Source: Bacteroidales bacterium (lineage in GTDB: Bacteria; Bacteroidota; Bacteroidia; Bacteroidales; UBA932). From it: 44,280 bases of DNA. Shown piece after piece: positions 12,190 to 40,569 of the stretch. Location of the stretch: assembly GCA_017549145.1 (NCBI GenBank), contig JAFYVM010000077.1:1-44280 (forward strand), written 5' to 3'. The translations under genes were made by a program, and so were the position numbers. Under the pieces are notes generated by a model. The model saw only the letters and a list, made by a program, of their open reading frames with translations. It was not told the origin of the DNA and made no database searches. How positions within the stretch are numbered: position 1 is the stretch's first letter; every line of letters starts with the position of its first letter.

Positions 12190-13380
12190 ATGAAGAAAAC
12201 GTTTTTGGCTATTGTGCTAGTTATTAGCTCTTTATGCCTTGTAAATGCCCAGCAGAAGCCAGTTAGAGCTAAAGCTCTCTGTGGACCGTATGTTCAGTGT
12301 GTGTCGGAAACAGGCTTTACTGTAATCTGGACAACAGACATGGATGCTATTGCATGGGTGGAAGTTGCACCGAACGATGGTACTCATTTCTACAACAAGG
12401 AGAGAGATAAGTACTATGATGCCAGGGGTAATGGTGTTTTTCCAATCGGTAAGATCCACAAGGTGGTCGTAGAGGGTCTTGAGCCTGGAACAACATATCG
12501 CTACAGAATCATGAACAAAGGCGTGACTGCCTACAATGGTTCGGGTAACGTAGAGTACACAAAGGGAAGCGGTACAGACGTACACCGCGGATCTGCTTTT
12601 GAAATCACAACGCTCAAGAAAGATTACGAAACACTTCGTTTCGATATTTTCAACGACATTCACGGAAAGGATTCTCTATTCCGTACAATCCTCGCTGGTG
12701 CAAGAGATAATCGCGACTTCGTTTTCCTTAACGGAGACATGACCAGCAACATTTCGAAAGAGGAGCTCATCGCATCGATGTATCTCAACTCTGCGGCTAA
12801 GAGCCTTAACGGAGGCGTTCCGATGTTTGCTTCAAGAGGAAATCACGAGCTCAGAGGACGCGATGCAATCAAGTGGCTTGACTATTTCTCAACTCCAACA
12901 GGAACTCCATACTACTCATTCAGCTTCGGCAAGTTCTTCTTCATCGTTCTTGATGCATGCGAAGACAAGCCGGACAGCGATATCGAGTATAGCGGAATCG
13001 TAGCATCAAGACCTTATGTTCAGCGTCAGTCCAGATGGCTCAAGGAGGTTCTCGCTTCTGAGGAATGCAAGAATGCAGAGGTACGTATCGTATTCTGCCA
13101 CGTTCCACCTGAAACAAACGGCTGGTATGGTGCAGCGCAGATGTGTGAGCTTCTGGTCGAGCCTCTCAATGAAGCTGATATTGATGCGATGTTCTGCGGA
13201 CATATTCACAGATGGAGAGTTGCAAAGCCTGATGGAAGCATTTCAAATGCAAACTTCCCGGTAATCTGCAATCCAAACATGCAGAGAATGGAGGTGACAG
13301 CAACAAATAAGTCTATCCAGATCAGCACATTCGACACAAACGGTAAGAATACTAACAACCACACAATCACTTTGAAATAA
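12190..13380 (+). CDS. Exported purple-acid-phosphatase-like metallophosphoesterase
   Basis: First gene of the PUL operon. The ATG at 12190 is chosen because it starts a signal peptide (MKKTFLAIVLVISSLCLVNA, then Gln-Gln); an extension from 12130 would cover the promoter. The protein has 396 residues. Residues about 25-135 form a fibronectin-III-like domain (GPYVQCVSETGFTVIWTT, LEPGTTYRYRI) of the type found before purple acid phosphatases. The calcineurin-like domain has DIH (Asp156-His158), NGD, GNHE (217-220), CHVPPE and GHIH (337-340). It differs from the two other phosphoesterases in the window in its N-terminal domain and motif I (DxH rather than DxQ), so it is a separate subfamily. It probably removes phosphate from glycan fragments. 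The GH97 gene follows after 5 nt. Confidence 0.88.
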   Translation: MKKTFLAIVLVISSLCLVNAQQKPVRAKALCGPYVQCVSETGFTVIWTTDMDAIAWVEVAPNDGTHFYNKERDKYYDARGNGVFPIGKIHKVVVEGLEPGTTYRYRIMNKGVTAYNGSGNVEYTKGSGTDVHRGSAFEITTLKKDYETLRFDIFNDIHGKDSLFRTILAGARDNRDFVFLNGDMTSNISKEELIASMYLNSAAKSLNGGVPMFASRGNHELRGRDAIKWLDYFSTPTGTPYYSFSFGKFFFIVLDACEDKPDSDIEYSGIVASRPYVQRQSRWLKEVLASEECKNAEVRIVFCHVPPETNGWYGAAQMCELLVEPLNEADIDAMFCGHIHRWRVAKPDGSISNANFPVICNPNMQRMEVTATNKSIQISTFDTNGKNTNNHTITLK

Positions 13381-13385
13381 CACTC

Positions 13386-15404
13386 ATGAGGAATTCTGTT
13401 CGCGTATTGAGCATTTTAGTGTCTCTTCTATTATCATGTGTCTATTCGCAGGCCGCAACGAAGAAACATACTCTTACATCTCCAAACGGTAAACTTACAG
13501 CAGTAGTCGAGTCGGGCGAGAATCTTCAGTGGACTCTCTCGTATGACGGTCAGCAGCTGATTGCCCCTTCAGCAATCTCAATGACCCTGGCTGATGGTAC
13601 CGTTTATGGTGGTGCTGCAAAGGTCAGCCGTGAGATCAGACGCAGTGTTGATAGAATCATCAATGCTCATATCTACAAGAAAGCTCAGGTTCAGGATAAG
13701 TACAATGAACTTACTCTCAAGTTCAAGAACTACTCTCTCATCTTCCGTGCTTTTGATGATGGATTCGCTTATCGTTTCGTATCACACTCCAAGGTCCCTT
13801 TCAAGGTAGTTTCTGAGCAGGCTACGTTTGCTGTTCCTGAGGACTGGAATATGTATGTGGGGTATGTATGTCAGAACCTTGCTACTCTCGAGACACAGCT
13901 TTTCAACTCGCATGAGAACATATATGAGTATTGTCCTGTATCTCAGTGGAACAAGGAGAGACTGGCATTTACTCCATTGATGATTGAGGCTCCAAAAGGC
14001 CTCAAGATGTGTATTATGGAGGCTGATCTTTTGAACTATCCTGGAATGTTCCTTTATAATGATGATGCATCTTCAACTCTCGATGGCGTATTCGCAAGAT
14101 ACCCTAAGACTATGGAACAGGGTGGACACAATATGCTTCAGATGCTTGTAAAGGATAGGGAAGAGTACATTGCTGCCTTTGATGGTGCAACTGAGTTCCC
14201 GTGGAGAGCAATCTCAATCTCTGAGAATGATGCACAGATGGCAGATAATGACCTCGTTTATCGTCTTGCTAAGGATCCGGATCCGCAGAAGGATTGGAGT
14301 TGGGTTAAGCCAGGTAAGGTCGCATGGGATTGGTGGAATGCCTGGAACATTCGTGGAGTGGATTTCCGTGCCGGAATCAACAATGATACCTATAAATATT
14401 ATATAGACTTCGCGTCGGAGTATGGAATCGAGTATGTAATCCTTGATGAGGGATGGGCTGTCAACAAGAAGGCTGACCTCTTCCAGGTGATTCCGGAGAT
14501 CGACCTTGAGATGCTTGTAAAGTATGCTCAGGAAAGAAATGTCGGTCTGATTCTCTGGGCAGGATACTGGGCTTTCGACAGAGAGATGGAGAAAGTGTTC
14601 CAGCATTTCTCAAAGATGGGTATCAAAGGCTTCAAGGTTGACTTCATGGATAGAGATGACCAGATTATGGTTGACTTCCACCATCGTGCTTCCAAGATGG
14701 CTGCTGATTATGGAATGCTCATCGACTTCCACGGTACATATAAGCCTACTGGCCTTCATAGGACATATCCTAATGTTGTGAATTTCGAGGGTGTGCATGG
14801 TTTGGAGACTGCAAAGGGTTCGCGTGGTAAGGAAGATGAAGTGGAGTATGACGTGACTATACCTTTCATCCGTATGGCCGCAGGACCGATGGATTACACT
14901 CAGGGCGCTATGCGCAATGCTACAAAGAGGAATTTCCGTTCTGTGAGCTCAGAGGCTATGAGCCAGGGAACAAGATGTCGTCAGCTCGCTGAGTATGTGA
15001 TCTTTGAGTCTCCACTTAATATGCTTTGCGACAACCCTTGCAACTATATGGATGAGCCAGAGTGTACTCGTTTCATTGCTGCTATTCCTACAGTTTGGGA
15101 AGAGACTAAAGCTTTGGATGGTAAGGTTGCAGACTATATCGTGATGGCCAGAAGAAGTGGCAATACATGGTATGTCGGAGGATTGACTGACTGGACTCCA
15201 CGTGATCTTCAGGTGAATCTCGATTTCCTTGCTGATGGTGAATACGAAGTTGAACTCTTCCGTGACGGAGTAAATGCTGACAGAACAGCACGCGACTATA
15301 AGAAGGTGATGATGACAATTGCTGTGAAGGACGGTAAGGCAGAACCGATGAACATCCACCTTGCACCAGGAGGTGGTTTCGCGGCAAAGATTACTAAGAA
15401 ATAA
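13386..15404 (+). CDS. Glycoside hydrolase family 97, retaining-type (alpha-galactosidase-like)
   Basis: GH97 enzymes of Bacteroidetes act on alpha-glucosides (inverting, SusB) or alpha-galactosides (retaining). The 672-residue product has the family layout: an N-terminal beta-sandwich (about 28-290, starting TSPNGKLTAVVESG), a TIM barrel (about 300-560) and a C-terminal beta domain. The segment GFKVDFMDRDDQ places Asp419 where the retaining branch has its nucleophile; as I recall, inverting members lack that Asp. DFHGTYKPTGLHRTYPNV follows, also typical of the retaining branch. The N-terminus could be cleaved by signal peptidase I after SQA or lipidated at Cys18 (LLSC); I cannot decide. Only 5 nt separate it from the phosphoesterase and 45 nt from susC. 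The family is certain, alpha-galactosidase specificity is inferred. Confidence 0.93.
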   Translation: MRNSVRVLSILVSLLLSCVYSQAATKKHTLTSPNGKLTAVVESGENLQWTLSYDGQQLIAPSAISMTLADGTVYGGAAKVSREIRRSVDRIINAHIYKKAQVQDKYNELTLKFKNYSLIFRAFDDGFAYRFVSHSKVPFKVVSEQATFAVPEDWNMYVGYVCQNLATLETQLFNSHENIYEYCPVSQWNKERLAFTPLMIEAPKGLKMCIMEADLLNYPGMFLYNDDASSTLDGVFARYPKTMEQGGHNMLQMLVKDREEYIAAFDGATEFPWRAISISENDAQMADNDLVYRLAKDPDPQKDWSWVKPGKVAWDWWNAWNIRGVDFRAGINNDTYKYYIDFASEYGIEYVILDEGWAVNKKADLFQVIPEIDLEMLVKYAQERNVGLILWAGYWAFDREMEKVFQHFSKMGIKGFKVDFMDRDDQIMVDFHHRASKMAADYGMLIDFHGTYKPTGLHRTYPNVVNFEGVHGLETAKGSRGKEDEVEYDVTIPFIRMAAGPMDYTQGAMRNATKRNFRSVSSEAMSQGTRCRQLAEYVIFESPLNMLCDNPCNYMDEPECTRFIAAIPTVWEETKALDGKVADYIVMARRSGNTWYVGGLTDWTPRDLQVNLDFLADGEYEVELFRDGVNADRTARDYKKVMMTIAVKDGKAEPMNIHLAPGGGFAAKITKK

Positions 15405-15449
15405 ACCAAAACAACATACAACCAAATCAACTAACTAATTAACTATTTT

Positions 15450-18400
15450 ATGAACAAACTTTATCATTTGATGATTCTGTTCCTAGCGGCTTTAATGCCA
15501 TTCGCAGCATCTGCACAGTCAGGTACTGTCAAGGGAACAGTAACAGATGAGTCCGGTTTGCCAGTAATCGGCGCCGGAGTCGTGGTGAAGGGAACGACAA
15601 AGGGTACGATTACTGACATCGACGGTGTCTATTCAATAGCTGCCGCTCAGGGTCAGACCCTCGTTTTCACTTCAATTGGCTACGTTGATCAGGAAGTCGT
15701 AGTTGGACTTTCTGACGAGGTTAACGTAGTTCTTAAGACTGACAACGAACTTCTTGATGAGGTCGTAGTGGTCGGTTATGGTGTTCAGAAGAAGGTGAAC
15801 CTTACTGGTTCGGTGAGTGTCGTTGAGTCTGAGGATCTCGTCGGCAGAACTTCTGCTAACACTTCAAACCTTCTCGTCGGAGTCGTTCCTAACATGAACG
15901 TAACTAACGACAACGGTCGTCCGGGTGATGGTTCAAGCATCAACATCCGTGGTGTCAACTCTATCTCAAGCAGCGCAGGTCCTTATGTCCTCGTTGATGG
16001 TGTAGAAGGAAACATTGACCGTGTAAACCCTAATGACATTGAGTCTATCTCAGTCCTCAAGGATGCTTCTTCTGCTGCTATCTATGGTGCTAAGGCTGCG
16101 TTCGGTGTTATCCTCATTACTACTAAGTCTGGTGGTGACGGTAAGGCACACGTTGATTATAACGGCCGTTTCAGCTTCCACTCACCAGCAGTAAAGACTG
16201 ACTATGAGACCAGAGGTTACTACTCAGCAGCTCTTTCTGACCTCTTCCATGAGACTTTTCAGGGAGTTCGCTTCACTAACTACAATGATGAGGACTACTA
16301 TGAGATGTGGATCCGTCGTAATGACAAGGTTGAGCATCCAGATCGTCCTTGGGTAATGGTGAAGGATGGTAAGTACAAGTACTATGCAAACCAGGACTGG
16401 TACAACTACTTCTTCAAGGATGACCGTCCAACTCATGAGCACAACCTCTCGATTTATGGTGGTACTCAGAAGTTGAGCTACCGTATTTCTGCCGGTTACT
16501 ATCACCAGGATGGTATCCTCCGTCAGGGACAGGGTGATGAGTATACTCGTTACAACATGCGCGTCCGCGTTTCTTCACAGGTAAACAATTGGCTTAAGGT
16601 AAGCAACAATACTACTTACTACGCTGATAAGTATCCTTACTACACTCGTGGTAATGTGAAGAACCTTTGGGGAAAGACAATGACTGGTGGTCTTGCTTCT
16701 ATCCCTGCTAGAAACAATGATGGTTCTGCTATCTGGATCGTAGATAACTATGCTACATCTAACAACCGTCTTATGTCAGGTTATTCAGCAGTAGCTGAGG
16801 ACGGACGTACTTACAACCAGGATGATAACAACCACTTCTCGACTACATTCGAGGTTGCTATCACTCCATTCGAAGGCTTCAGAGTAACTGGAGACTACAC
16901 TTTTACACACGCTCAGTACAGAGCTGTGAACCGTAGTGTTCCTGTTCCTTATTCTCAGTATCCAGGCGTAATCGAGATGTGTTACGACCTTACTGACCAG
17001 CTCTCTGAGTCAAGAACTATTCAGGAGATCCAGACTGCCAATATCTATGCTAACTATACCAAGACATTTGCACAGGATCACAACTTCTCAGCAACAGCCG
17101 GTGTATTCTACAACACAAGATTCCAGTACTCACTCGCTGCAAATCGTCAGGACCTCCTCAGCGATGAGCTCAATGACTTCAACCTTGCAAAGAGTGAGAC
17201 AATGAACCTTACTGGTGGTAGAACACGTTATATCAACCAGGGTCTCTTCTACCGTGCATCTTATGACTATAAGGGACGTTACCTTCTCGAGGTGAATGGA
17301 CGTTATGACGGTTCATCACGTTTTGCAAAGGGTATCCGCTACGGTTTCTTCCCATCAGTTTCTGCTGGTTGGAGAATCAGTGACGAGTCATGGTTCGAGC
17401 CTGCAAAGAAGGTAGTTAACAGCCTTAAGCTCCGTGCTTCTTATGGTAAGCTCGGTAACAATGAGGTAGGTGACTACGATTACATCCAGACTATTACTTC
17501 TGGTGCTTCTATCGACTATATCTTCGGAACTACAAACAAAGCAGCTGGTGCTTCAGTTTCTGCGCCTAACGCTTCAGACTACTCTTGGGAGGTTGTAACT
17601 TCAGCTAACATCGGTCTCGATATCAGCTTCCTCCAGAACAAGTTGACATTCAGCGGAGATGCTTACATCCGTGACACTGACGGAATGCTTATGGCAATGT
17701 CAGATCTTCCTGCAGTTTACGGAGCATCTGCACCTAAGAGCAACGCTGCTTCCCTCCGTTCAAAAGGTTGGGAGTTCATGATCGAGTGGAAGGATAGCTT
17801 CATGCTTGGTGGTCGTCCATTCAACTACTCAGTTGGTGGCTCACTTGCTGACTACGTTTCACACGTTCGTCACTACAACAACGATAACCACACAATCGGT
17901 ACTCCATACACAGGTCAGCGCCTTGGTGAGATGTGGGGTTATGTAGTAGATGGTTACTTCGCAACTGATGAGGAGGCTGCTAACTACGCTGTAGACCAGT
18001 CTTATGTTAACTCAATGATCAACCAGTGTGCTATCGATAAGGGAGTTCACGCCGGTGACCTTAAGTTCGTGGATATGGACGGTGACGGTGTTATCTCTCC
18101 AACCCTTTCTGCAAAGAACGTGAAGGATATGGTAGTAGTTGGTAACTCACTTCCAAGATTTACTCACACTGTACGTCTTTCTGCTCAGTACGCTGGATTC
18201 GACCTTTCACTTCTCTTCAATGGTGTAGGTTATCAGAACTGGTATCCAAGAGGTGACACAGGTCTCTTCTGGGGTAACTATGCTCGTCCATTCCAGACTT
18301 ACATTCCTGGCGACTTCGCTGAGAAGATCTGGACCCCAGAGAACCCAGATGCATACTTCCCACGTCCACGTGGATACGTTGCATTCAACTCAGGAGTTCG

Positions 18401-18689
18401 TGAGCTTAACGTAGTTAATACTAAGTATATCCAGAACGTTGGTTACTTCCGTCTCAAGAACCTTACATTCGGTTACTCACTTCCTAAGAAGTGGATGGAT
18501 AAGATCCAGATCGAGAAGGTTAGAGTATACTTCTCTGGTGAGAACCTCTTCACAGTTTCACCTCTCGAGAGTGACTATATCGACCCTGCAATGGCTGGTG
18601 CGACAACAACTTGGAAATCTGGTAACACAGACTGCTACGGCTACCCAACAGCTAGAGCATACTCTTTCGGTCTTGATATAACATTCTAA
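15450..18689 (+). CDS. SusC/RagA-type TonB-dependent outer-membrane transporter
   Basis: Imports oligosaccharides across the outer membrane together with its SusD lid, powered by TonB. The 1079 residues comprise a signal peptide (1-22, ASA|Q), a carboxypeptidase-regulatory-like domain (about 26-110, GTVTDESGLPVIGAGVVVKG), a TonB-box region (LDEVVVVGYGVQKKVNLTGSV), a plug (NINIRG-type motif INIRGVNSISS and YVLVDGVEG), and a beta-barrel ending with the C-terminal Phe of DITF. It has no N-terminal STN domain, so it is not the anti-sigma-signalling kind. The leader before the ATG (15405-15449) is A/C-rich and lacks a Shine-Dalgarno, as is common for highly translated Bacteroidetes genes. The SusD gene follows after 13 nt. 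Confidence 0.97.
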   Translation: MNKLYHLMILFLAALMPFAASAQSGTVKGTVTDESGLPVIGAGVVVKGTTKGTITDIDGVYSIAAAQGQTLVFTSIGYVDQEVVVGLSDEVNVVLKTDNELLDEVVVVGYGVQKKVNLTGSVSVVESEDLVGRTSANTSNLLVGVVPNMNVTNDNGRPGDGSSINIRGVNSISSSAGPYVLVDGVEGNIDRVNPNDIESISVLKDASSAAIYGAKAAFGVILITTKSGGDGKAHVDYNGRFSFHSPAVKTDYETRGYYSAALSDLFHETFQGVRFTNYNDEDYYEMWIRRNDKVEHPDRPWVMVKDGKYKYYANQDWYNYFFKDDRPTHEHNLSIYGGTQKLSYRISAGYYHQDGILRQGQGDEYTRYNMRVRVSSQVNNWLKVSNNTTYYADKYPYYTRGNVKNLWGKTMTGGLASIPARNNDGSAIWIVDNYATSNNRLMSGYSAVAEDGRTYNQDDNNHFSTTFEVAITPFEGFRVTGDYTFTHAQYRAVNRSVPVPYSQYPGVIEMCYDLTDQLSESRTIQEIQTANIYANYTKTFAQDHNFSATAGVFYNTRFQYSLAANRQDLLSDELNDFNLAKSETMNLTGGRTRYINQGLFYRASYDYKGRYLLEVNGRYDGSSRFAKGIRYGFFPSVSAGWRISDESWFEPAKKVVNSLKLRASYGKLGNNEVGDYDYIQTITSGASIDYIFGTTNKAAGASVSAPNASDYSWEVVTSANIGLDISFLQNKLTFSGDAYIRDTDGMLMAMSDLPAVYGASAPKSNAASLRSKGWEFMIEWKDSFMLGGRPFNYSVGGSLADYVSHVRHYNNDNHTIGTPYTGQRLGEMWGYVVDGYFATDEEAANYAVDQSYVNSMINQCAIDKGVHAGDLKFVDMDGDGVISPTLSAKNVKDMVVVGNSLPRFTHTVRLSAQYAGFDLSLLFNGVGYQNWYPRGDTGLFWGNYARPFQTYIPGDFAEKIWTPENPDAYFPRPRGYVAFNSGVRELNVVNTKYIQNVGYFRLKNLTFGYSLPKKWMDKIQIEKVRVYFSGENLFTVSPLESDYIDPAMAGATTTWKSGNTDCYGYPTARAYSFGLDITF

Positions 18690-18702: not shown

Positions 18703-20502
18703 ATGAAATCAAATAAGATAACAAAGTGGCTGATGCTCTGTGTTTCGGTTGTTGGTCTTTCTGCCTGCGATATTACTTTGTATCCAGAGGATAAGATTAC
18801 ACCGGGTTCGTTCTTCAGAAACGAGTCAGACCTTCAGTTGTTTACAAATAACTTCTACGTTTCAACTATGCCAAGCGCAACTGATATCTATCAAGATGAG
18901 GCTGATATCATCATCAACCCTGCGCTTAACGACGCTGTCAGCTGTCAGAGAATTATTCCTGAGACAGGTGGTGGCTGGTCTTGGACTGCTCTAAGACAGA
19001 TCAACTATTATCTTGAGAACTCATACCGTTGTAGCGATGAGGCTGCAAGACTTCACTATGATGGAATCGCTAGATTCTTCAGAGCAATGTTCTACTTCAA
19101 CAAGGTCAAGAGATTCGGAGACGTTCCTTGGTATGACGTTGTAGTAGGTTCAGGTGATGCTGCTCTTCTTAACAAGCCACGTGATTCACGTAAGTATGTG
19201 ATGGAGAAGATTCTTGAGGACCTAGACTATGCAATTGAAAACATCAACTCTTCAAAGGATGTTTACCGTGTTTCTAAGTGGGCAGCTCTCGCTCTTAAAT
19301 CAAGAGTGATGCTTTTCGAAGGAACTTTCCGTAAGTATCATGGTCTTGGTGACTGGGAAGTTTGCCTTCAGGAGTCTGTTAAGGCTTCAGAGCAGCTCAT
19401 TAACGAGGGCGGTTATGCACTTTATGCAAAGGGTGACACTCCTTACGCATCACTCTTCATGACTCTCAATGCAACTGAGACTGCAGAGGAAGTTATCCTT
19501 GCTCGTGACTACAGCAACACAGTTCAGCTTCGTCACTCAGTTCAGAACTACACTACTTCACCTACTGCAGGTTGTACAGGTGTGACAAGACGTCTTGTTG
19601 ATGCTTACCTTATGGCTGACGGTTCATTCCACACTAGCCGTAAGAACTATAATAAGATGAGCTTTGTAGATGAGTGCAAGAACCGTGACCCACGTATGGC
19701 TCAGACTCTCCGTACTCCTGGTTACGAGATTCAGGGTGTTCCTACTCCTGCAAACCTCGGTGCCATGAAGCTCGGATATCAGCTCAGAAAGTTCTATATT
19801 GCTGTTGAGTATGATGGATTCTCGGAGGTTGACCTTCCTGTATTCCGTCTTGCTGAGGTTTACCTTAACCATGCTGAGGCAAAGGCTGAGCTCGGTACAC
19901 TTACTCAGGCTGACCTTGACAACACTGTTAACCTCATCAGAGCACGTGCTGGTGTAAAGGGTAAGCTTGATATGGCTACAGCTAACGCTAATCCTGAGCC
20001 TTGGATCAAGGGTTGCTACCCTTACCTTGCAAAGCTTAACCCTGCTAACCTCGGAGTAATCCTTGAGATTCGTCGTGAGCGTACAGTTGAGCTTGTAATG
20101 GAAGGCTTCCGTTACTATGACATCATGCGTTGGAAGGAGGGTTCAGTATTCAATGAGGAGTTCCTCGGAATGTATATCGCAGGTCCTGGTCCTATCGACG
20201 TAAGCGGTGATGGCAAAGCTGATTTCTACATCAAGACAAAAGGTGACACTGCTACTCCAGCTGCTGGACTTGAAGTGTTGAACATGGAGGATGGAAAGGT
20301 TACTCTTGTAACTCCAAACGCTTCAGGAGCCAATACTTACAATGGTGAGAGCGGATACCTTACTACTCATACTCTTGACGTTCTTACAAGACAGTGGAAC
20401 GAGGATAGAGATTACCTCTACCCAATTCCTACTAAGGAGCGTGTTCTTACTAACGGTGTTCTTACTCAGAACCCAGGTTGGGAAGATGGTCTTGGACTTT
20501 AA
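18703..20502 (+). CDS. SusD/RagB-type surface glycan-binding lipoprotein
   Basis: Partner of the SusC transporter, forming the lid that captures glycan on the cell surface. A lipoprotein signal peptide ends at LSAC (Cys22). Family landmarks are all present: RFFRAMFYFNKVKRFGDVPWYD in the N-terminal helical region, LAEVYLNHAEAKAELG, NLIRARAGV, IRRERTVELVMEGFRYYDIMRW, and a C-terminal LYPIPTKE..NGVLTQNPGW. At 599 residues it is a little longer than classical SusD (about 550), mostly through the segment after RW that contains a DxSGDGKADFYI stretch. This stretch resembles a Ca-binding loop and may be an insertion. The next gene begins 18 nt downstream. Confidence 0.96.
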   Translation: MKSNKITKWLMLCVSVVGLSACDITLYPEDKITPGSFFRNESDLQLFTNNFYVSTMPSATDIYQDEADIIINPALNDAVSCQRIIPETGGGWSWTALRQINYYLENSYRCSDEAARLHYDGIARFFRAMFYFNKVKRFGDVPWYDVVVGSGDAALLNKPRDSRKYVMEKILEDLDYAIENINSSKDVYRVSKWAALALKSRVMLFEGTFRKYHGLGDWEVCLQESVKASEQLINEGGYALYAKGDTPYASLFMTLNATETAEEVILARDYSNTVQLRHSVQNYTTSPTAGCTGVTRRLVDAYLMADGSFHTSRKNYNKMSFVDECKNRDPRMAQTLRTPGYEIQGVPTPANLGAMKLGYQLRKFYIAVEYDGFSEVDLPVFRLAEVYLNHAEAKAELGTLTQADLDNTVNLIRARAGVKGKLDMATANANPEPWIKGCYPYLAKLNPANLGVILEIRRERTVELVMEGFRYYDIMRWKEGSVFNEEFLGMYIAGPGPIDVSGDGKADFYIKTKGDTATPAAGLEVLNMEDGKVTLVTPNASGANTYNGESGYLTTHTLDVLTRQWNEDRDYLYPIPTKERVLTNGVLTQNPGWEDGLGL

Positions 20503-31141: not shown

Positions 31142-32988
31142 TGAAAAAGATTATATATGTATGTGCAGCCTTTTTGGCACTTTCATGTGTGAATAAGTCA
31201 GAGGTTGCCCCTGTGACAGGCAAGGTTCCTGTAACAGTAGAGGTTGCGGAGACAAAGACTGTTATCAATGGCAATCAGGTCTCTTTTGCAGGAGCTGAGG
31301 CAATGTCACTTGTATGCCAGGATCTCAACGCTGCCAAGATTACAAATAAGGACATGGCTGTGAATAAGTTTACAGGTGAGTTCAATGCAGTTGGCAAGTC
31401 AAAAGCAGATGCATCATTCTATGCAATATATCCATATGTCGGAGTAGGTCAGAATGGACAGGAGAGATGCTTTGTACCAGTTAGTCAGCGAGCACCTTTT
31501 GACGCATCTGCTAACTTTATGTGCTCGGATATTGTAACTTCAGCATATGATGAGACTGCTATGCCGGCTCTTTCTTTGTCGATGAACCAGCTTTTGGGTA
31601 TTGTAAAGGTGTCATTTACTAACTCATCTGCTTCTTATCAGGAAGATATGGTAAAGGAGGTGGTACTTACAAGTTCAACTCCACTTGTCGGTGAGTTTGT
31701 TGTAAAGTTCGATAAGGACGGAAAGCCATACCCTGAGTTTAAAGGCACAGACAAGAGAGTCCTTTCATGGTTCACCACACCTGTTGAGCTTGGTGTGAAT
31801 AAGACTCATGAGGTGTACTTCTGCGTAAATCCTGCTGAAATCAAGGATGCTGTTCTTACAGTTCGTACTGACAAGCATGTCTTTACACGCCAGGCTAAGG
31901 GTGCGTTCACTGCAGTTCAGGGTGATTTGACATATATGGATCCGATGGATGTAGCTACTACTTTCACTCCTGCTGAGGCTAAGTTGAAGACTCTTGTAGT
32001 ATGGGGAGACAGCTACACAAACCGTGGATACGAGACAACTCATATTGACAGATGTAACTATGCTTACCATCTACAGCAGATGCTCGGCAGCGAGTGGCAG
32101 ATCTTTAATGGAGGATGCTCAGGTGACGTTACCAACACAATCGCAGCTCGTCAGGGTGGTATCTCTATGCATGTCGGTGCAAGTGATTTCACAATTCCTG
32201 CGGACTGCACTCCAGTAGCTGTCGGAGGAGTTTATTCTGGACGTAACTTCTGGTTCACACAGGGTGAGTATACTCAGATTTCTCGTTATGGTCTTATTAA
32301 TCCATGTGAGATTGTTGTTGAGGATGCTCAGGGAAATGAGATTGCACGAATCGAGGGTAGGATTACTCATAAAGGAAATGAAACCAATAAGACTGCAGAC
32401 TTCGCTACAGATGTGAAGTTTACACGTACTACTCCAGGTGAGGCAATCACAGTTCCTGCAAAATCTAAGCTTGTTACTTTTGCTGCCAAGAATCTCCGCA
32501 ACCCGGATCTTACTATTATCTATATGGGTCAGAACGGTGGTTACAAATCTTTGGATATCCTTTACTCGCAGTATCGTGCTATGATTGATTATGCATTCCC
32601 TGAAGGACCAGAAAACTATATCGCTGTTGGTTTCCATAACCATACTAAGCTTGCTACAGAGAATGTAAATAATGCATACTGGGACTTCTTCGAGGGACCT
32701 AACGGATTTGGTGTGAACGAAAGCGCAGGACGTCCTATAAGCCGTTTCGTTAACCTTTTCAAAGAGCTCACAGGAGAGAACTATAAGGATTATCTCGCTC
32801 TTTCTGGAGCAGCAGCGTCGCCTTCAGATGTAATGGCAGCTGACAGTAAGTATGTATTGGACGGAATGCTTCCACGCTCATATTGGTTCGACCCGGAGGC
32901 AGGCGATATCCATCCAAACGAGTATGGTGCAAAAGCTTTTGCCCATGCTATCTACAAGAAGATCGTAGAACTCGGATATGTTGATTAA
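31141..32988 (+). CDS. Lipoprotein SGNH hydrolase with fimbrillin-like N-terminal domain
   Basis: The lipobox is LALSC (Cys16). Residues about 20-265 read like a fimbrillin-type (Mfa-like) beta-sandwich: TKTVINGNQVSFAGAEAMSL, ASFYAIYPYVG, LGIVKVSFTN, STPLVGEF. The C-terminal part (about 285-615) is an SGNH/GDSL hydrolase with block I WGDSY (Ser291), block II GGCSGD, block III YMGQNGG and block V DIHPNEYG (Asp589, His591). SGNH enzymes deacylate esters, often O-acetyl groups on glycans, so this may strip ester decorations before glycosidases act. About 110 residues between blocks II and III form a beta-rich insertion. A fimbrillin-like domain on an esterase is unusual and may serve as a surface or binding module. 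Confidence 0.82.
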   Translation: MKKIIYVCAAFLALSCVNKSEVAPVTGKVPVTVEVAETKTVINGNQVSFAGAEAMSLVCQDLNAAKITNKDMAVNKFTGEFNAVGKSKADASFYAIYPYVGVGQNGQERCFVPVSQRAPFDASANFMCSDIVTSAYDETAMPALSLSMNQLLGIVKVSFTNSSASYQEDMVKEVVLTSSTPLVGEFVVKFDKDGKPYPEFKGTDKRVLSWFTTPVELGVNKTHEVYFCVNPAEIKDAVLTVRTDKHVFTRQAKGAFTAVQGDLTYMDPMDVATTFTPAEAKLKTLVVWGDSYTNRGYETTHIDRCNYAYHLQQMLGSEWQIFNGGCSGDVTNTIAARQGGISMHVGASDFTIPADCTPVAVGGVYSGRNFWFTQGEYTQISRYGLINPCEIVVEDAQGNEIARIEGRITHKGNETNKTADFATDVKFTRTTPGEAITVPAKSKLVTFAAKNLRNPDLTIIYMGQNGGYKSLDILYSQYRAMIDYAFPEGPENYIAVGFHNHTKLATENVNNAYWDFFEGPNGFGVNESAGRPISRFVNLFKELTGENYKDYLALSGAAASPSDVMAADSKYVLDGMLPRSYWFDPEAGDIHPNEYGAKAFAHAIYKKIVELGYVD

Positions 32989-33146: not shown

Positions 33147-35732
33147 ATGACAATGAGAAAGTTAAGTTATTTTGCGGCTCTTGTCGTAGCGATGGTAGCC
33201 GTTTCATGTGCTAAGGAGATTGATGCTCCTGTAGCAGACAGTACAGTTAAATTTACAGCAAGTTTTGATGCATCTGCTTCTAAGGCAGTGCTCAAGCCTG
33301 GTGCTGAAGAATCAAAGGTAGAGTGGGAGGCTGGTGATCAGGTAAGTATTCTTGCTGCTGGCGCAAACTACCTTTATGCAGCTCAGACTCCGGGCGCATC
33401 TACAACTCTTACAACAGAGGCAACAGATGTACCTGCAGAAGGTCCGTATTATGCTGTTTATCCTTATGATGCTGATGCAACTCTTGCAGAAGGCGTGATC
33501 ACAACAGAACTTCCTGCAGAGCAGACTGCAGTTCTTGGTTCATTCTCAACACATCTTGCAGTTGCTCAGGCAAATGGAACTACTCTTGCTTTCAAGAACG
33601 TATGCGGTCTTGTGAAGGTAAATGTAAGTGCAGAGAATGTGACTAAGATCGTACTCGAAGGAAATTCTGGTGAGGTTGTAGCTGGTGCTATCAATGTTAC
33701 TGTAGCTGATGCTCCAACCTGGACAGCAGTTGCAGAGCAGGGTGCTACTTCTGTTTCACTTGCTGCTGCTTCAGGCACACTTGCTAAGGGTGACTACTAT
33801 TTCGCTGTTCTTCCTCAGACTTTCGCTGCAGGTTTCAAGGTGACTGCATATAAGGGCGAGACAGCTTCTGTTATCAGAAATGTCACAACTGAGGTTACAA
33901 TTGCACGTGCTGATATCGTAGCCGGCAAGTCATTCGGTATTGACGGTGAAGGAACAGAGGCAAGTCCATACATCCTCAAGACGGCTCAGGATATGGTTGA
34001 TATGCGTTCACTTGCAAAGCTTGGTGGCGAGACTTGGTTTAAGATGGCTAACGACATCGACATGGCTGGCGTAACCAACTTCATTCCGGTAAACTACAAT
34101 GATAACTTCGAAAGAAAGATACATTTTGACGGTGGAAACTTTACTCTCTCGAACTTTACATGTGACAAGTCTGTGAATGGCGCTAACTATCCAAGCCTTT
34201 TTGGAGTACTTTATGGTTCATGTAAGAATCTTAAAGTCGATAACGCCACTATCAAATCTTCAAGCGGATGTGGAGTTCTTGGTGGATATGTAGGAACATC
34301 AGGCAAACCTGGCCTTGTTGAGAATGTCACTATTACAAATTCTATAGTTGATAATACTGGTGATGCGGCAGGTGGTGTCTGTGGAAATGCCAGAGAGGCT
34401 ACATTTAAGAATGTATCATTCCAGGGAACTGTTACATCTAAAATAACTACTAAGGCTGCTAAGTCTGGTGGATTTGTTGGTATCGGAAATTCGACAGCTT
34501 CATTTGAAAATTGTTCTGTTGATGCAGTTGTCAATGGTGCAGGTACAGATCTGGGAGGTTTTGCTGGATATTTGACAGGATCTAAATTTGACTTTACTGG
34601 CTGTGATGCTAAGGTTATTGTAACAACGACTGCACCTGAAAAGAACCGTGCAGGTGGATTTCTCGGATGGAATTCTGCTGCTGCTGTGACAATTACAGAC
34701 TGTCACGTATTGGAAGGCTCAACAGTTACTGATGCTGCAGAAAGAACAGCTAATAAGAATAGTATGACAGGAGGATTCATCGGCTATGGAGATATCGATG
34801 GTACAGTTCTTACTATAAAGGATTGCTCATCAAAGGCGACTGTAAATGCTGGAACATATGGAGCACAGGCATCCGGCTTTATCGCTACGGTGGGATATGA
34901 TTCGGAAGTTACTATTGAAAATTCTTTTGCAGAGGGAGATGTTACCGGACAAAATTTTACAGCAGGTTTTGTGGGTTATATGGGCGAGAATGTTAAGATG
35001 ACCATTGCAGACTGTCATTATGAAGGAACGGTTTCTGGTAATAGCTCTGTTGCAGGATTGGTAGCAGGTGCAGCTACTACTACAAATGATGGTGTCGATA
35101 ACTATCCTGATTTGACAATCTTAAGATCATATGCTAAAGGTAATATTAATCCGAAGGGTACAAATAACGGTGGACTTGTCGGACAGTCGCAGGGTACCAT
35201 GAAAGTAGAGAATTCGTATGTGGATGTTACAATCACTATGCAGACACAGCAGTATGGTGCAGGTATCGTCGGTATGGCGAAGTATCAGACTTCCATCAAG
35301 AATTGTTTTGCAAAGGGACAATTGAATATTGGTAGAGGTTGTGCGTTTATTGTTGGTAGATTAGAGGGAACTGCTGCGATCGAAGGTTGTGTTGCGTGGG
35401 GAAATATTAAGACTAACCGCGGTGTGACCCAGTATTCTCCAGGTGCTATTGTCGGTACAATACAGACTGGCAATGGTACATATAAGTCTTGCTATCGCAA
35501 TGCAGATATGGTTCTTGACGATCCATGGATGAAACTCGTAGATCATGATGATGTAGTTAATGGCCGTCCGCCACTTCCAGTTTATGAGGGAGACACTGCA
35601 GCTGATAAAAACCAGTACGCTTACCATGGCAAGGCCGCAGCGGCAGACGCTACAATTTCATCAGTTGCCAAGTCAATCGGCTGGGATGAGGCAATCTGGG
35701 ATCTCTCAGGTGCTGTTCCAGTATTGAAATAG
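33147..35732 (+). CDS. Fimbrillin-like/GLUG-repeat fusion lipoprotein
   Basis: Starts at 33147 or, two codons later, at 33153; either gives a lipoprotein leader ending VAVSC. Residues about 28-270 form a fimbrillin-like beta-sandwich (VKFTASFDASASKAVL, WEAGDQVSIL, YYAVYPYDADATL, VCGLVKVNVSAENV, KGDYYFAVLPQTF), and residues 275-861 are the GLUG head, repeats and cap (GTEASPYILKTAQDM, IHFDGGNFTLSNF, SLFGVLYGSCKNLKV, then AYHGKAAAADAT and IGWDEAIWDLS). It is the largest GLUG protein of the set. Fimbrillin-like domains elsewhere build pili by donor-strand exchange, but here a single domain is fused to a beta-helix, so a surface binding protein is more likely. A terminator follows at 35752. Confidence 0.82.
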   Translation: MTMRKLSYFAALVVAMVAVSCAKEIDAPVADSTVKFTASFDASASKAVLKPGAEESKVEWEAGDQVSILAAGANYLYAAQTPGASTTLTTEATDVPAEGPYYAVYPYDADATLAEGVITTELPAEQTAVLGSFSTHLAVAQANGTTLAFKNVCGLVKVNVSAENVTKIVLEGNSGEVVAGAINVTVADAPTWTAVAEQGATSVSLAAASGTLAKGDYYFAVLPQTFAAGFKVTAYKGETASVIRNVTTEVTIARADIVAGKSFGIDGEGTEASPYILKTAQDMVDMRSLAKLGGETWFKMANDIDMAGVTNFIPVNYNDNFERKIHFDGGNFTLSNFTCDKSVNGANYPSLFGVLYGSCKNLKVDNATIKSSSGCGVLGGYVGTSGKPGLVENVTITNSIVDNTGDAAGGVCGNAREATFKNVSFQGTVTSKITTKAAKSGGFVGIGNSTASFENCSVDAVVNGAGTDLGGFAGYLTGSKFDFTGCDAKVIVTTTAPEKNRAGGFLGWNSAAAVTITDCHVLEGSTVTDAAERTANKNSMTGGFIGYGDIDGTVLTIKDCSSKATVNAGTYGAQASGFIATVGYDSEVTIENSFAEGDVTGQNFTAGFVGYMGENVKMTIADCHYEGTVSGNSSVAGLVAGAATTTNDGVDNYPDLTILRSYAKGNINPKGTNNGGLVGQSQGTMKVENSYVDVTITMQTQQYGAGIVGMAKYQTSIKNCFAKGQLNIGRGCAFIVGRLEGTAAIEGCVAWGNIKTNRGVTQYSPGAIVGTIQTGNGTYKSCYRNADMVLDDPWMKLVDHDDVVNGRPPLPVYEGDTAADKNQYAYHGKAAAADATISSVAKSIGWDEAIWDLSGAVPVLK

Positions 35733-35751: not shown

Positions 35752-35780
35752 AAGGAGTCTCCAAATGGGGACTCCTTTTT
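35752..35780 (+). terminator. Rho-independent terminator after the fimbrillin/GLUG gene
   Basis: Arms of 11 nt (35752-35762 and 35767-35777, one T-G wobble) around an AAAT loop, ending in a run of five T. It separates the GH20 pair from the upstream unit. Confidence 0.9.
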
Positions 35781-35803
35781 CGTCATTTGACGGCAGTCCT
35801 CCT

Positions 35804-35823
35804 GGAACAATTCATTTTGTTCC
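35804..35823 (+). promoter_or_regulatory. Inverted repeat GGAACAA-N6-TTGTTCC over the -33 box (candidate operator)
   Basis: A perfect 7-bp dyad with a 6-nt spacer whose right arm overlaps the TTTG -33 element of the GH20 promoter. The position would suit a repressor site. No regulator gene is in the window to pair with it. Confidence 0.45.
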
Positions 35824-35846
35824 CTCCTAAAAATTTCGTATTTTTG
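35816..35846 (+). promoter_or_regulatory. Promoter of the GH20 pair
   Basis: TTTG (35816-35819), exactly 19 nt, then TATTTTTG (35839-35846): both Bacteroidetes elements match consensus. The ATG is 36 nt downstream. This is one of the two cleanest promoters in the window. Confidence 0.8.
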
Positions 35847-35882
35847 GCACCGCTTAAATGCATATATACTAACTAAATAAAT

Positions 35883-38219
35883 ATGAAAAAGATTTTTTTG
35901 TTTTTGACTCTTGCTATTGCAGTTTCGTGTACGACACAGGTACACCAGAGCAATGTGCTTGATGTTGTTCCTTATCCTAATGATGTTCAGGTGGGAGAGG
36001 GTGTGTTCAACGCCAAGGGAGCCGCGGTAGCATATGATGAGTCTGTTGATGAGGCAAGTGCTAATGTGATCAAGGCTTTTGCTGAGAAACTGGCAGTTGC
36101 CAGTGGAGCGCAGAACGCTGTTAGCGTTGGTACTGCTGACAATGGATTCGTATTCACATACAACGCGGAGATTCCTGCTGAGGCTTACACATTGAACGTA
36201 ACTCCAGAGGCTGTGCGTGTAGAGGCTTCCGGTCTCCGTGGATTCAATTATGCAATCCAGACTATCAAGCAGCTTCTCCCTGTGGAGATTTTTGCTGCTA
36301 AGCCTGCACCGAGAGCATCATGGACTATTCAGTGCGTGACTATCTCAGATGCACCTAGATACTCTTATCGTGGTCTTCATCTTGACGAGGGACGTCATTT
36401 CTTCGGAGTCGAGGCTGTCAAGAGATATTTGGATATCATGGAAGTTCACAAACTCAATAAGTTCCACTGGCATCTCACTGAGGATCAGGGTTGGAGAATC
36501 GAGATCAAGAAGTACCCACGTCTTACAGAGATCGGTGCAGTACGTAAGGGTACCTGCATCAAGAAGGATTTCTCATCACATGACGGAGTTCCATACGGCG
36601 AGGGAATGTGGTATACTCAGGATCAGATCCGAGAGATTGTGGCTTATGCTGCAGCTAAGGGTATTGATGTAATTCCTGAGATTGACCTCCCTGGTCACAT
36701 GCTTGGAGCGCTTGCTGCATATCCTGAGCTTGGATGTACAGGTGGACCATACGAGGTCTGGACTCGCTGGGGCGTTTCTGATGATGTGCTTTGTGCTGGA
36801 AACGAGGCAATCTATGGATTCCTTGAGGATATTCTTACTGAGGTTTGCGAGCTCTTCCCTTATGAATATATCCACCTCGGTGGTGATGAGTGTCCAAAGG
36901 TACGTTGGGAGACTTGCCCTAAGTGTCAGGCTAAGATCAAGGAACTTAAACTTAAGGATAAGGATGGCGAGAAGGCAGAACATTTCCTTCAGAGCTATGT
37001 AATTTCTCGTATGGAGAAGTTCCTCAATTCTAAGGGACGTAAGATCATCGGATGGGATGAGATCCTTGAGGGTGGTATCGCTCCAAACGCGACAATCATG
37101 TCTTGGAGAGGCGAAGGTGGTGGTATCGCTGCGGCTCGTCAGGGACACGATGCTATCATGACTCCTAATTCACATTATTATCTTGACTATTATCAGTCAG
37201 AGGATATTAAGAATGAGCCACACGGAATCGGTGGATATCTTCCAGTTGAGAAGTGCTACTCATATGAGCCTGCTGAGAATGACCTTACTCCTGAGGAGAA
37301 GAAGCATATCCTTGGTATTCAGGGAAATATGTGGACAGAGTATGTGGCTACTGAGGAGCATCTTCAGTATATGATTCTTCCACGTCTTGCTGCTCTTTCT
37401 GAGTGCCAGTGGTGTAATGTCGAGAATAAGAGTTGGGAGCGTTTTTCTGCTGCTGCAGTGAGATTCTGCAAGATGTATGATGTTATGGGTTATAACTATG
37501 CTACTCATATGTTCCAGGTTAAGGGTGATGTTGTAGCTAACCCTACTGAGAAGTCTGCAACTGTGACCCTTTCAACTCAGGGCGATGCTCAGATCAGATA
37601 TACTCTCGATGGAACTAAGCCAGGTAAGAATTCACTTCTTTACACTGAACCTCTTGTTTTGACAGAGAGCTGTGTATTGACAGCCGTGTCTATCAGAAAT
37701 AACGTTGAGCCTAAGTACTATACCAGAAGGTTTGATTTCCATAAGGCTATCGGTAAGAAGGTTACTTTCTCACGTGAGGTGAATACAAGATACGCTAAGG
37801 GTGGGGATGTTAACTTGACTGATGGTGTTCGTGCTAATGAGGTTCATAAGAGTGTTGATTGGACAGCTTGGCGTGGTGATGCAGTGGATCTTGTGGTTGA
37901 TATGGAGAGCACTGAGCCATATAGCAGCGTTTCATTCGGAATGCTCAGCAACAAGTCTTCACGTATTTTCCTTCCAGTTAAGCTTGTTATTGCTGTATCT
38001 GAGGATGGCGTGAACTATACTGAGGTTGCTTCACAGGAGTATGAGATTGAGCCAAAGGATGCACCAGATGATCATATTACAGAGTATTCGTTCTCATTCC
38101 CTGAGACATCTGCTCGCTACATCAAGGTTACTGGAACTCCAGTGGAGGTGCTTCCGGAGTGGCATTACAATGCTGGTGCTCGTGTTTACATTTTCTTTGA
38201 TGAGATTATTGTACGCTAA
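35883..38219 (+). CDS. GH20 beta-N-acetylhexosaminidase, lipoprotein (copy 1)
   Basis: Releases terminal beta-linked GlcNAc or GalNAc by substrate-assisted catalysis. The lipobox is AVSC (Cys16), followed by TTQVHQ with no acidic export signal, so the protein is likely periplasmic-facing (inference). Layout of 778 residues: GH20 N-terminal alpha/beta domain (about 20-145), catalytic barrel (about 150-500) with YRGLHLDEGRHFFG, HWHLTEDQGWRIEIK, and GGDECPKVRW carrying the Asp335-Glu336 pair; a chitobiase-type C-terminal beta domain (about 545-625, IRYTLDGTKPG); and a discoidin-like (F5/8 type C) module (about 645-778, ARYIKVTG). All catalytic motifs are present. It is 16 nt before its paralogue, and both are driven by the promoter at 35816. 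Confidence 0.95.
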   Translation: MKKIFLFLTLAIAVSCTTQVHQSNVLDVVPYPNDVQVGEGVFNAKGAAVAYDESVDEASANVIKAFAEKLAVASGAQNAVSVGTADNGFVFTYNAEIPAEAYTLNVTPEAVRVEASGLRGFNYAIQTIKQLLPVEIFAAKPAPRASWTIQCVTISDAPRYSYRGLHLDEGRHFFGVEAVKRYLDIMEVHKLNKFHWHLTEDQGWRIEIKKYPRLTEIGAVRKGTCIKKDFSSHDGVPYGEGMWYTQDQIREIVAYAAAKGIDVIPEIDLPGHMLGALAAYPELGCTGGPYEVWTRWGVSDDVLCAGNEAIYGFLEDILTEVCELFPYEYIHLGGDECPKVRWETCPKCQAKIKELKLKDKDGEKAEHFLQSYVISRMEKFLNSKGRKIIGWDEILEGGIAPNATIMSWRGEGGGIAAARQGHDAIMTPNSHYYLDYYQSEDIKNEPHGIGGYLPVEKCYSYEPAENDLTPEEKKHILGIQGNMWTEYVATEEHLQYMILPRLAALSECQWCNVENKSWERFSAAAVRFCKMYDVMGYNYATHMFQVKGDVVANPTEKSATVTLSTQGDAQIRYTLDGTKPGKNSLLYTEPLVLTESCVLTAVSIRNNVEPKYYTRRFDFHKAIGKKVTFSREVNTRYAKGGDVNLTDGVRANEVHKSVDWTAWRGDAVDLVVDMESTEPYSSVSFGMLSNKSSRIFLPVKLVIAVSEDGVNYTEVASQEYEIEPKDAPDDHITEYSFSFPETSARYIKVTGTPVEVLPEWHYNAGARVYIFFDEIIVR

Positions 38220-38235
38220 AATTTAACTAAATCAT

Positions 38236-40569
38236 ATGAAAAAGATTCTATTATTTGCTGGCTTGGCTTTAGCTGCAGCATGTACAACTGAGGTTCACCA
38301 GAGCAATATTCTGGATGTGATTCCTTATCCAAATGAGGTGCAGGTGGGTGTGGGTACTTTTAATGCTAAGGGTGCTGCGGTCACATACGAGGAGTCTTTT
38401 GATGAGGTTTCTGTAAATGTGATCAAGGCATTTGCTGATAAACTTTCTGCAATCAGCGGCGTAGCTTCTGTAGCGACTGCCGGTACTGCTGAAACAGGTT
38501 TTGTGTTCGCTTACAATGAGGCTGTTCCAGCTGAGGCTTACACGCTTGACGTGAAGGCTGATGTGGTTCGTGTTGAGGCTTCTGGTCTTCGTGGATTCAA
38601 CTATGCGATCCAGACCATCAAGCAGCTTCTTCCTGTTGAGATCTTTGGAAATACTCCTGCTCCTAAGGCATCATGGACTATGCAGTGTGTGACTGTTTCT
38701 GATGCTCCACGTTTCGGATACCGTGGTCTTCACCTTGATGAAGGACGTCATTTCTTCGGTGTTGAGGAGGTTAAGCGTTACCTTGACATCATGGAGGTAT
38801 ACAAACTTAATAAGTTCCACTGGCATCTTACTGAAGATCAGGGTTGGAGAATTGAGATTAAGAAGTATCCACGTCTTACCGAGGTTGGATCGATTCGTAA
38901 GGGTACCTGCATCAAGAAGGATTTCTCTTCGCATGACGGAGTGCCTTATGGTGAGGGAATGTGGTACACTCAGGATCAGATTCGTGAAATTGTAGCATAC
39001 GCTGCTGCAAAGGGTATTGATGTGATTCCAGAGATTGACCTTCCTGGTCATATGCTCGGAGCGCTTGCTGCATATCCGGAACTTGGATGTACAGGTGGCC
39101 CATACGAGGTCTGGACTCGTTGGGGTGTGTCTGAGGATGTTCTCTGCGCCGGTAATGAGGCTGTCTATACATTCCTTGAGGATGTCTTGACAGAGGTTTG
39201 CGAACTTTTCCCTTATGAGTATATCCACGTAGGTGGCGATGAGTGTCCTAAGGTACGTTGGGAGGCTTGTCCTAAGTGCCAGGCTAAGATCAAGGAACTT
39301 AAGTTCAAGGATGATAAGAATCATAAGGCTGAGCATTATCTTCAGAGTTATGTCATCACAAGAATGGAGAAGTTCCTCAACTCAAAAGGACGTAAGCTCA
39401 TTGGTTGGGATGAGATTCTTGAGGGTGGTATCGCTCCGAATGCGACTATCATGTCTTGGAGAGGCGAGAAGGGTGGTCTTGAGGCTGTACGCCAGGGCCA
39501 TGATGCCATCATGACTCCGAACACATACTTCTATCTCGATTACTATCAGTCTGCTGATATTGAGAATGAGCCTTTCGGAATCGGTGGATATCTTCCTGTT
39601 GAGAAGTGTTATTCTTATGAGCCATATCCTGCTGGAATGACAGAGGAGGAGACAAAGCATATCATTGGTGTTCAGGCTAATATGTGGACAGAATATATCT
39701 CTGAGGTAGATCATCTCCACTATATGCTTCTCCCTCGTCTTGCTGCTCTTGCCGAAGTTCAGTGGTGTAATGCTGACCGCAAGGATTGGGACCGTTTCTT
39801 CAATGCCGCTGACAATTTCTGCAAGGTATATGACGTAATGGGATATAACTATGCAACTCATATCCTCCAGGTGAAGGGTAGTGTAGAGGCTAAGCCTGCT
39901 GAGAACTGCGCAGTGGTTACACTCGCGGCACAGGGTGATGCCCCTATCAGATATACTCTTGATGGTACAGCTCCTACCAAGAGATCTAAGCTCTACACAG
40001 AGCCGCTCGTGATCTCAGAGAACTGCGTACTTACAGCAGCTGCAATGAGAAAGGGAATTGAGCCTAAGAACTATGTCAGAAAGTTTGATTTCCACAAGGC
40101 TGTAGGCAAGGAACTTACTTTCTCTCGCAAGGCGCATAGAAACTATTCTGCTGCAGCTCCTGCAAACCTGATTGATGGTGTTCGCGGTCCAAAGGTCTTC
40201 AAGAGCATCGAGTGGACAGCATGGCATGGCAAGCCAGTTGACCTTATGATAGATATGGCGGAGACTCAGCCATATAGCTCGGTTACTCTTGGAATGCTTA
40301 CAGACAAGCCTTCGCATATCTTCTTCCCAACAAAGATTGCTGTTGCGGTTTCAGAGGATGGTGAGAACTATACTGAAATTGCTGCTCAGGAGTATGAACT
40401 GGAAGGAAAGGATGATCCAGATGGAACCAAGGATTTCACAGTTTCTTTCGCTGAAACATCTGCACGTTATCTCAAGGTGACTGTTGAACCGACTGCTGCA
40501 ATGCCGGAATGGCATCATAAGAAAGGAGGAGCAACATTCATTTTCCTTGACGAAATCATCGTTCGATAG
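38236..40569 (+). CDS. GH20 beta-N-acetylhexosaminidase, lipoprotein (copy 2)
   Basis: A tandem paralogue of copy 1, nearly the same length (777 residues) and collinear to the last residues (FLDEIIVR against FFDEIIVR). The lipobox is AAAC (Cys16). The catalytic Asp335-Glu336 in GGDECPKVRW has the same number in both copies. The barrel is strongly conserved between copies (YRGLHLDEGRHFFGVE, KKDFSSHDGVPYGEGMWYTQ), while the N-terminal and C-terminal non-catalytic domains differ more, so the copies may have diverged in binding or chain-length preference. It has the same chitobiase-type and discoidin-like C-terminal modules. The unit ends in the hairpin at 40602. Confidence 0.95.
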   Translation: MKKILLFAGLALAAACTTEVHQSNILDVIPYPNEVQVGVGTFNAKGAAVTYEESFDEVSVNVIKAFADKLSAISGVASVATAGTAETGFVFAYNEAVPAEAYTLDVKADVVRVEASGLRGFNYAIQTIKQLLPVEIFGNTPAPKASWTMQCVTVSDAPRFGYRGLHLDEGRHFFGVEEVKRYLDIMEVYKLNKFHWHLTEDQGWRIEIKKYPRLTEVGSIRKGTCIKKDFSSHDGVPYGEGMWYTQDQIREIVAYAAAKGIDVIPEIDLPGHMLGALAAYPELGCTGGPYEVWTRWGVSEDVLCAGNEAVYTFLEDVLTEVCELFPYEYIHVGGDECPKVRWEACPKCQAKIKELKFKDDKNHKAEHYLQSYVITRMEKFLNSKGRKLIGWDEILEGGIAPNATIMSWRGEKGGLEAVRQGHDAIMTPNTYFYLDYYQSADIENEPFGIGGYLPVEKCYSYEPYPAGMTEEETKHIIGVQANMWTEYISEVDHLHYMLLPRLAALAEVQWCNADRKDWDRFFNAADNFCKVYDVMGYNYATHILQVKGSVEAKPAENCAVVTLAAQGDAPIRYTLDGTAPTKRSKLYTEPLVISENCVLTAAAMRKGIEPKNYVRKFDFHKAVGKELTFSRKAHRNYSAAAPANLIDGVRGPKVFKSIEWTAWHGKPVDLMIDMAETQPYSSVTLGMLTDKPSHIFFPTKIAVAVSEDGENYTEIAAQEYELEGKDDPDGTKDFTVSFAETSARYLKVTVEPTAAMPEWHHKKGGATFIFLDEIIVR

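Follow-up and report, generated by a model that had tools for sequence, protein, structure and literature searches.

Gene content of the SusCD locus and its NAGPA proteins

The window analysed here is a 44,280-nucleotide stretch of a Bacteroidales bacterium of the UBA932 lineage (GCA_017549145.1, JAFYVM010000077.1; contig C77 in an assembly of 78 contigs and 2.35 Mb), and its subject is a polysaccharide utilization locus (PUL) with three proteins of the NAGPA family (PF09992). NAGPA is the human and animal uncovering enzyme, which takes the sugar off a sugar-phosphate link. According to ORF calls and a Pfam scan taking in 26 window ORFs, positions 12130-40569 carry 14 genes, all on the plus strand and separated by small intergenic gaps (Table 1). 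SusC adjoins SusD, and the glycoside hydrolases (GH) GH97, GH3 and two GH20 are co-directional with them, as in a Sus-type PUL; no regulator domain of the HTCS, ECF/anti-sigma or SusR kind was found in the 26 ORFs scanned, such a regulator being usual and not obligatory. An earlier note on this DNA had proposed a PUL for a phosphodiester-containing glycan, and every gene that it named is present: SusC and SusD, an enzyme resembling purple acid phosphatases (PAP), GH97, GH3 and both GH20, together with a divergent phosphoesterase and, in a neighbouring operon, an MBL-fold protein and a metallophosphoesterase-GDPD fusion. Absent from its gene list were the proteins with GLUG repeats, of which the Pfam scan finds four in the PUL.

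The three NAGPA proteins, N1, N2 and N3, match PF09992 with 67, 77 and 74 bits at a gathering cut-off of 25. The HPR, DGR and DGGGS motifs are all kept in N2 and N3, which bears out the earlier count of two intact NAGPA enzymes and a third, NAGPA-derived protein; N1, one of the four GLUG-bearing proteins, has GCGDE where DGGGS is expected. Its orthologue in a second genome, SIG155, has GCGDD at this place and is 57% identical over the NAGPA part, and since the loss of DGGGS is common to both, N1 is probably a binder rather than an enzyme. A profile built from four N2/N3-type sequences finds the solved NAGPA entries 6pkg, 6pki, 6pku and 6pky as well as the bacterial 3ohg, which we take to be BACOVA_00430, a protein reported to have weak uncovering activity. 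The above-cut-off matches and the shared motifs thus tie N2 and N3 to the family of animal NAGPA and 3ohg; unlike these, the window proteins are encoded with SusC and SusD in a PUL and comprise two intact-motif copies plus one without DGGGS that is fused to GLUG repeats. Extracellular calcineurin-like phosphoesterases fused to NAGPA are described in the available passages of PMC11488536, and such fusions give independent support for a pairing of the two families.

The lipobox pattern occurs on SusD, N1, N2, the three further GLUG proteins, the SGNH-like protein and both GH20, is absent from N3, the PAP-like enzyme, GH3 and SusC, and is equivocal in GH97. For the PAP-like gene, an internal ATG at 12190, the start taken by the earlier note, gives the better signal peptide and is the likely start. 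The SGNH hydrolase of that note is a putative one, called from its GDS and DxxH motifs and from weak GDSL profile matches: PF13472 scores 16.5-19.2 bits for the protein and its SIG155 orthologue, below the cut-off of 32.9 in both, and the window protein has no Pfam GDSL match at E<=0.001.

Table 1. Genes of the NAGPA-containing PUL and selected genes on its left side
Feature	Position	Strand	Basis and remarks
PAP-like metallophosphoesterase	12130..13380	+	Pur_ac_phosph_N + Metallophos; signal peptide
GH97, retaining alpha-galactosidase type	13386..15404	+	Pfam
SusC-like TonB-dependent transporter	15450..18689	+	Pfam
SusD-like lipoprotein	18703..20502	+	Pfam
N1, NAGPA-family lipoprotein with GLUG repeats, without DGGGS	20521..22872	+	PF09992 and motif reading
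N2, NAGPA phosphodiester glycosidase family, lipoprotein	22938..24044	+	PF09992 and motifs
N3, NAGPA phosphodiester glycosidase family, without lipobox	24037..25032	+	PF09992 and motifs
GLUG-repeat lipoprotein	25111..26895	+	Pfam, lipobox
GH3 beta-glycosidase	27005..29272	+	Pfam
GLUG-repeat lipoprotein	29288..31141	+	Pfam, lipobox
SGNH-like hydrolase, lipoprotein	31141..32988	+	motifs GDS and DxxH; GDSL score below cut-off; kept in SIG155
GLUG-repeat lipoprotein	33147..35732	+	Pfam, lipobox
GH20 beta-hexosaminidase	35883..38219	+	Pfam
GH20 beta-hexosaminidase	38236..40569	+	Pfam; 74% identical to the preceding GH20
MetallophosN/C phosphoesterase, divergent from the PUL	10656..12110	-	Pfam
Metallophosphoesterase-GDPD fusion, separate operon	4175..6427	+	Pfam
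MBL-fold protein, neighbouring operon	2888..4117		Pfam

To the left of the PUL lie a BACON-domain protein, the MBL-fold protein, the metallophosphoesterase-GDPD fusion, an M49 peptidase, XerD, FKBP, RecR and the divergent MetallophosC phosphoesterase. In the fusion, a MetallophosN/C phosphoesterase and a GDPD domain are joined in one 750-residue protein.

Conservation in a second genome and sister loci

Besides the genes, their families and their active-site motifs, the analysis establishes a core order that is conserved in SIG155, where the sequence up to the contig end reads M49-XerD-FKBP-219 aa ORF-RecR-PAP-SusC-SusD-N1-N2-N3-GLUG-SGNH. Identity between window and SIG155 amounts to 86% for SusC, 78% for PAP and 75% for SusD, and the PAP-like gene is the first gene of the SIG155 locus also (738 bits). 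In the SIG155 stretch covered, PAP is followed by SusC with no GH97 in between, and the divergent metallophosphoesterase is not beside the PUL; the PUL contig has only one PF00149 match among the matches listed. Homologues of the divergent MetallophosN/C enzyme are found inside two SIG155 NAGPA runs, on contigs C46 and C11. The latter carries, in a single run, an N1/GLUG-like protein truncated where the contig stops, then NAGPA, an OPA-family transporter, a split GlmM, MetallophosC and then a GH20 that adjoins CorA, like the right side of the window; past CorA the contigs diverge, with an S1-domain protein in SIG155 and DUF4251 in the window. Read across unjoined contigs, C11 is plausibly the remainder of the same locus. 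Its GlmM-like mutase (L080 6964-8385, G061:C11) lies in two frames of 265 and 164 residues, reflecting a frameshift or an assembly error.

NAGPA genes recur beyond this pair of loci. NAGPA matches number 16 in the own genome, 11 in SIG155 and 0 to 6 in each of the twelve same-genus relatives whose completeness reaches 90%, and a search with N2 gives a match in 29 of 61 genomes, the own one included. In G016, G034, G018 and on own contig C65, a single run of same-strand genes takes in both SusC-SusD and NAGPA; in G003 and G028 they are neighbours. Four of these six loci also have GLUG. Among the 29 same-strand NAGPA runs of the fetched loci, the window's own run excluded, SusC occurs in 12, SusD in 10, GLUG in 9, OPA in 5, S1/P1 and GDSL in 4 each, EEP and GH20 in 3 each, and PAP, MetallophosC and GDPD in 2 each. 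With some genes omitted, the run on own contig C52 reads EEP-SusC-SusD-NAGPA-DUF4886x2-S1/P1-OPA-GDPD and that on SIG155 C46 reads NAGPA-MetallophosC-SusC-SusD-EEP-GLUG-NAGPA-DUF4886-EEP-PAP-OPA-GDSL-GlmM-GalE, the GlmM of the latter exceeding the TIGR03990 cut-off. Three OPA genes score 159-246 bits with the NCBIfam PgtP, GlpT, UhpC and UhpT models, below the model cut-offs, and for the one compared with solved structures the best is GlpT 1pw4.

Further arrangements were seen in these genomes. Another NAGPA-SusCD run (L077 60-3550, G000:C66) includes a gene for an ECF sigma factor and proteins with TIG/NHL repeats. On a 15 kb contig without SusC or SusD, NAGPA adjoins an LPG_synthase_TM membrane protein (G000:C48:10955-13167). 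EEP-family genes (PF03372) stand close behind SusD, with no NAGPA match nearby, at G000:C49:7816-9470, G000:C10:12102-14092, G000:C34:7835-9707 and G023:C3:37036-38839.

Evidence for and against a phosphodiester-linked substrate

Because the N2 and N3 motifs are intact, the core order is kept in SIG155 and the sister loci bear phosphoesterases, the best reading of the locus is a PUL for a glycan or glycoconjugate with sugar-1-phosphodiester links, which on the sequence evidence we consider reasonably probable. The earlier proposal is thereby partly supported: its core idea is strengthened by conservation and by sister loci with PAP, S1/P1, metallophosphoesterase, GDPD and GlpT/UhpT-like genes, and the polymers that it named remain candidates.

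Across twelve genomes, 19 of 39 NAGPA clusters have SusD no more than 10 kb away (7.6 expected, p=2.6e-5), that is, 9/17 in batch 1 and 10/22 in batch 2, where near and far were judged by eye among the matches listed. All proximity p-values are calculated as if genes were placed uniformly and contigs had no ends; G019 C4 and C38, moreover, look like duplicates. This association, together with the order kept in a second genome, argues that the gene set is more than a chance assembly. PF00149 phosphoesterases occur within 10 kb of 7/25 NAGPA clusters (2.4 expected, p=0.008) and within 5 kb of 4/25 (p=0.047), and without the own genome the 10 kb figure is 5/16 (1.3 expected, p=0.008). MetallophosC is near 4/39 clusters at 10 kb (1.1 expected, p=0.024) and 2/39 at 5 kb (p=0.14). 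OPA genes accompany 6/39 clusters at 10 kb (1.25 expected, p=0.0014), or 4/37 once the loci that gave the idea are excluded (p=0.027); adding four further genomes, covered by the N2 search only, gives 7/46 (p=0.0005) and, with the discovery loci excluded, 5/43 (p=0.009). Taken together, phosphoesterase and OPA genes account for 19 of the 182 genes in NAGPA runs and for 8 of the 326 genes in the rest of the loci (p=0.0002).

A number of results weigh against a dedicated phosphodiester system. With query-source contigs dropped, the last comparison becomes 6/117 vs 7/276 (p=0.16), and batch 1, once the own genome is excluded, has SusD near 3/8 clusters at 10 kb (p=0.11) and 1/8 at 5 kb (p=0.51). 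OPA with the discovery loci excluded stands at 1/37 at 5 kb (p=0.47), its comparison between NAGPA runs and the rest of the loci gives p=0.06, and weak MFS matches, used as a control, are enriched at least as much (4/39 vs 0.6 at 10 kb, p=0.003), so that OPA specificity was dropped to suggestive. SusD loci with NAGPA do not differ significantly by Fisher test from other SusD loci in metallophosphoesterase (1/9 vs 6/78), EEP (2/9 vs 11/78), S1/P1 (1/9 vs 1/78) or GH20 (1/9 vs 3/78). EEP was rejected as a NAGPA-specific partner, being found also beside SusD without NAGPA, and PAP-like, EEP and GDSL enzymes serve other pathways too. The AlphaFold2 model of N2 is poor (mean pLDDT 53), and the argument therefore rests on sequence profiles.

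Two elements on which the earlier note had leaned should not serve as pillars of the phosphodiester reading. GH20, near 2/17 NAGPA clusters (p=0.27), has no significant tie to NAGPA and was rejected as its defining partner. The GDPD-fusion operon, which had been counted as part of the system, is not beside the PUL in the SIG155 stretch covered, and its membership is unsupported by synteny. As for GDPD genes in general, 2/29 NAGPA runs contain one, and among the 326 genes outside such runs there is 1 (p=0.29).

GH20 and GH97 bear on the view that the locus is an ordinary PUL for a phosphate-free host or plant glycan of N-glycan or mucin type, in which the NAGPA proteins would simply cleave glycosides or bind glycan and the PAP-like enzyme would be incidental. 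GH97 groups with the alpha-galactosidases 3a24 and 5e1q, the former being its best PDB match (807 bits); the first GH20 is closest to 6q63 (789 bits), with which both GH20 group and which is presumably the N-glycan enzyme BT0459. BT0459 acts on antennary GlcNAc according to the part of PMC10154615 available. GH92 and GH20 moreover occur with another NAGPA-SusCD locus on own contig C19. Against this stand the two intact-motif NAGPA proteins, the conserved PAP and the S1/P1, GDPD and OPA genes of sister NAGPA runs, and neither GH20 nor GH97 significantly tracks NAGPA; a phosphate-free substrate is accordingly judged unlikely.

Candidate substrates, proposed route and implications

For a phosphodiester-linked substrate, the candidates are a teichoic-like polymer, a capsule, a fungal or protist phosphoglycan and a glycophospholipid. 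Two of these are developed below; they are narrower substrate versions of the phosphodiester reading, and their odds overlap with it.

In the first, the locus would act on a bacterial capsule or on a polymer of glycerol phosphate or ribitol phosphate that resembles teichoic acid, with the genome's GDPD and GlpT-like genes handling glycerol phosphate, a tentative proposal at best. GDPD stands by a GlpT/UhpT-like gene in the own C52 run and adjoins NAGPA in G004:C21, and in the PAP-like enzyme a calcineurin-like domain is joined to Pur_ac_phosph_N. According to the available passages of PMC11488536, this group of phosphoesterases and the teichoate hydrolase PhoD both have an N-terminal FN3 domain, drawn as Pur_ac_phosph_N. 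The likeness to the way in which Bacillus subtilis breaks down teichoic acid with PhoD and GlpQ lies in this domain pairing and in the GDPD of related loci; unlike there, the phosphoesterase is here encoded with SusCD and NAGPA, and the Pfam scan finds no GDPD gene within the PUL, the window's only one being the fusion outside it that is unlinked in the SIG155 stretch covered. The GDPD counts in NAGPA runs given above argue in the same direction.

In the second, which we regard as rather unlikely, a phosphomannan or phosphoglycan of fungi or protists would be the substrate, capped by sugar-1-phospho-6-mannose, the bond cut by animal NAGPA. It accords with the activity of the animal enzyme and with that attributed to BACOVA_00430, and own contig C19 has a GH92 downstream of its NAGPA gene. 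The sections of PMC10154615 available suggest that a GH97 could take alpha-Gal caps off Schizosaccharomyces pombe mannan, and they establish that Bacteroides can take up phosphate-bearing fungal mannan, by means of GH38, GH92 and phosphatases. The yeast alpha-mannan PULs of Bacteroides thetaiotaomicron resemble the present locus in polysaccharide uptake and phosphatases, their substrate having phosphate between mannoses (PMC10154615, in part). They differ in using GH38, GH92, GH76, GH99 and GH125, none of which was found in the 26 window ORFs scanned, and NAGPA goes unmentioned in the fungal-mannan section of that source.

For the phosphodiester reading as a whole, the gene set fits a two-step attack by NAGPA and then a phosphatase, followed by exo-glycosidases; each enzymatic step, the order of steps and their cellular sites are what we infer from the genes. 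The GLUG lipoproteins, N1 and SusD would capture the glycan, and N2 and N3 would hydrolyse sugar-1-P-O-R to free sugar and a phosphomonoester. SusC may take in the fragments, and the PAP-like enzyme may strip the phosphate, possibly aided by the divergent MetallophosC enzyme. The SGNH protein would take off acyl groups, GH20 would trim beta-HexNAc, GH97 alpha-Gal and GH3 a beta-glycoside. It is tempting to speculate, with considerable doubt, that the SusCD locus family of this genus and SIG155, the window included, scavenges phosphodiester-linked glycans for both carbon and phosphate: NAGPA would expose a phosphomonoester on the fragment set free, and the GlpT/UhpT-like organophosphate antiporter and GlmM-like mutase of sister loci would bring the sugar phosphate into metabolism with no dephosphorylation.

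The earlier note knew of no PUL with such a gene set. No description of a NAGPA-centred PUL was recognised in the literature searched, which covered part of the matching literature; PULs for phosphodiester-bearing glycans are already known, yeast mannan being the precedent (PMC10154615, in part), and what is new here is that the uncovering-enzyme family forms the core of a PUL. Enzymes of the locus could also be of use where mannose-6-phosphate has to be uncovered on therapeutic glycoproteins. To our knowledge, little is known of what bacterial NAGPA/DUF2233 proteins act on in nature, and a conserved SusCD-NAGPA-phosphatase unit would offer a concrete substrate class for them; if this holds true, the reach of PULs would extend to phosphate-linked polymers, including teichoic acids, capsules and phosphoglycans.

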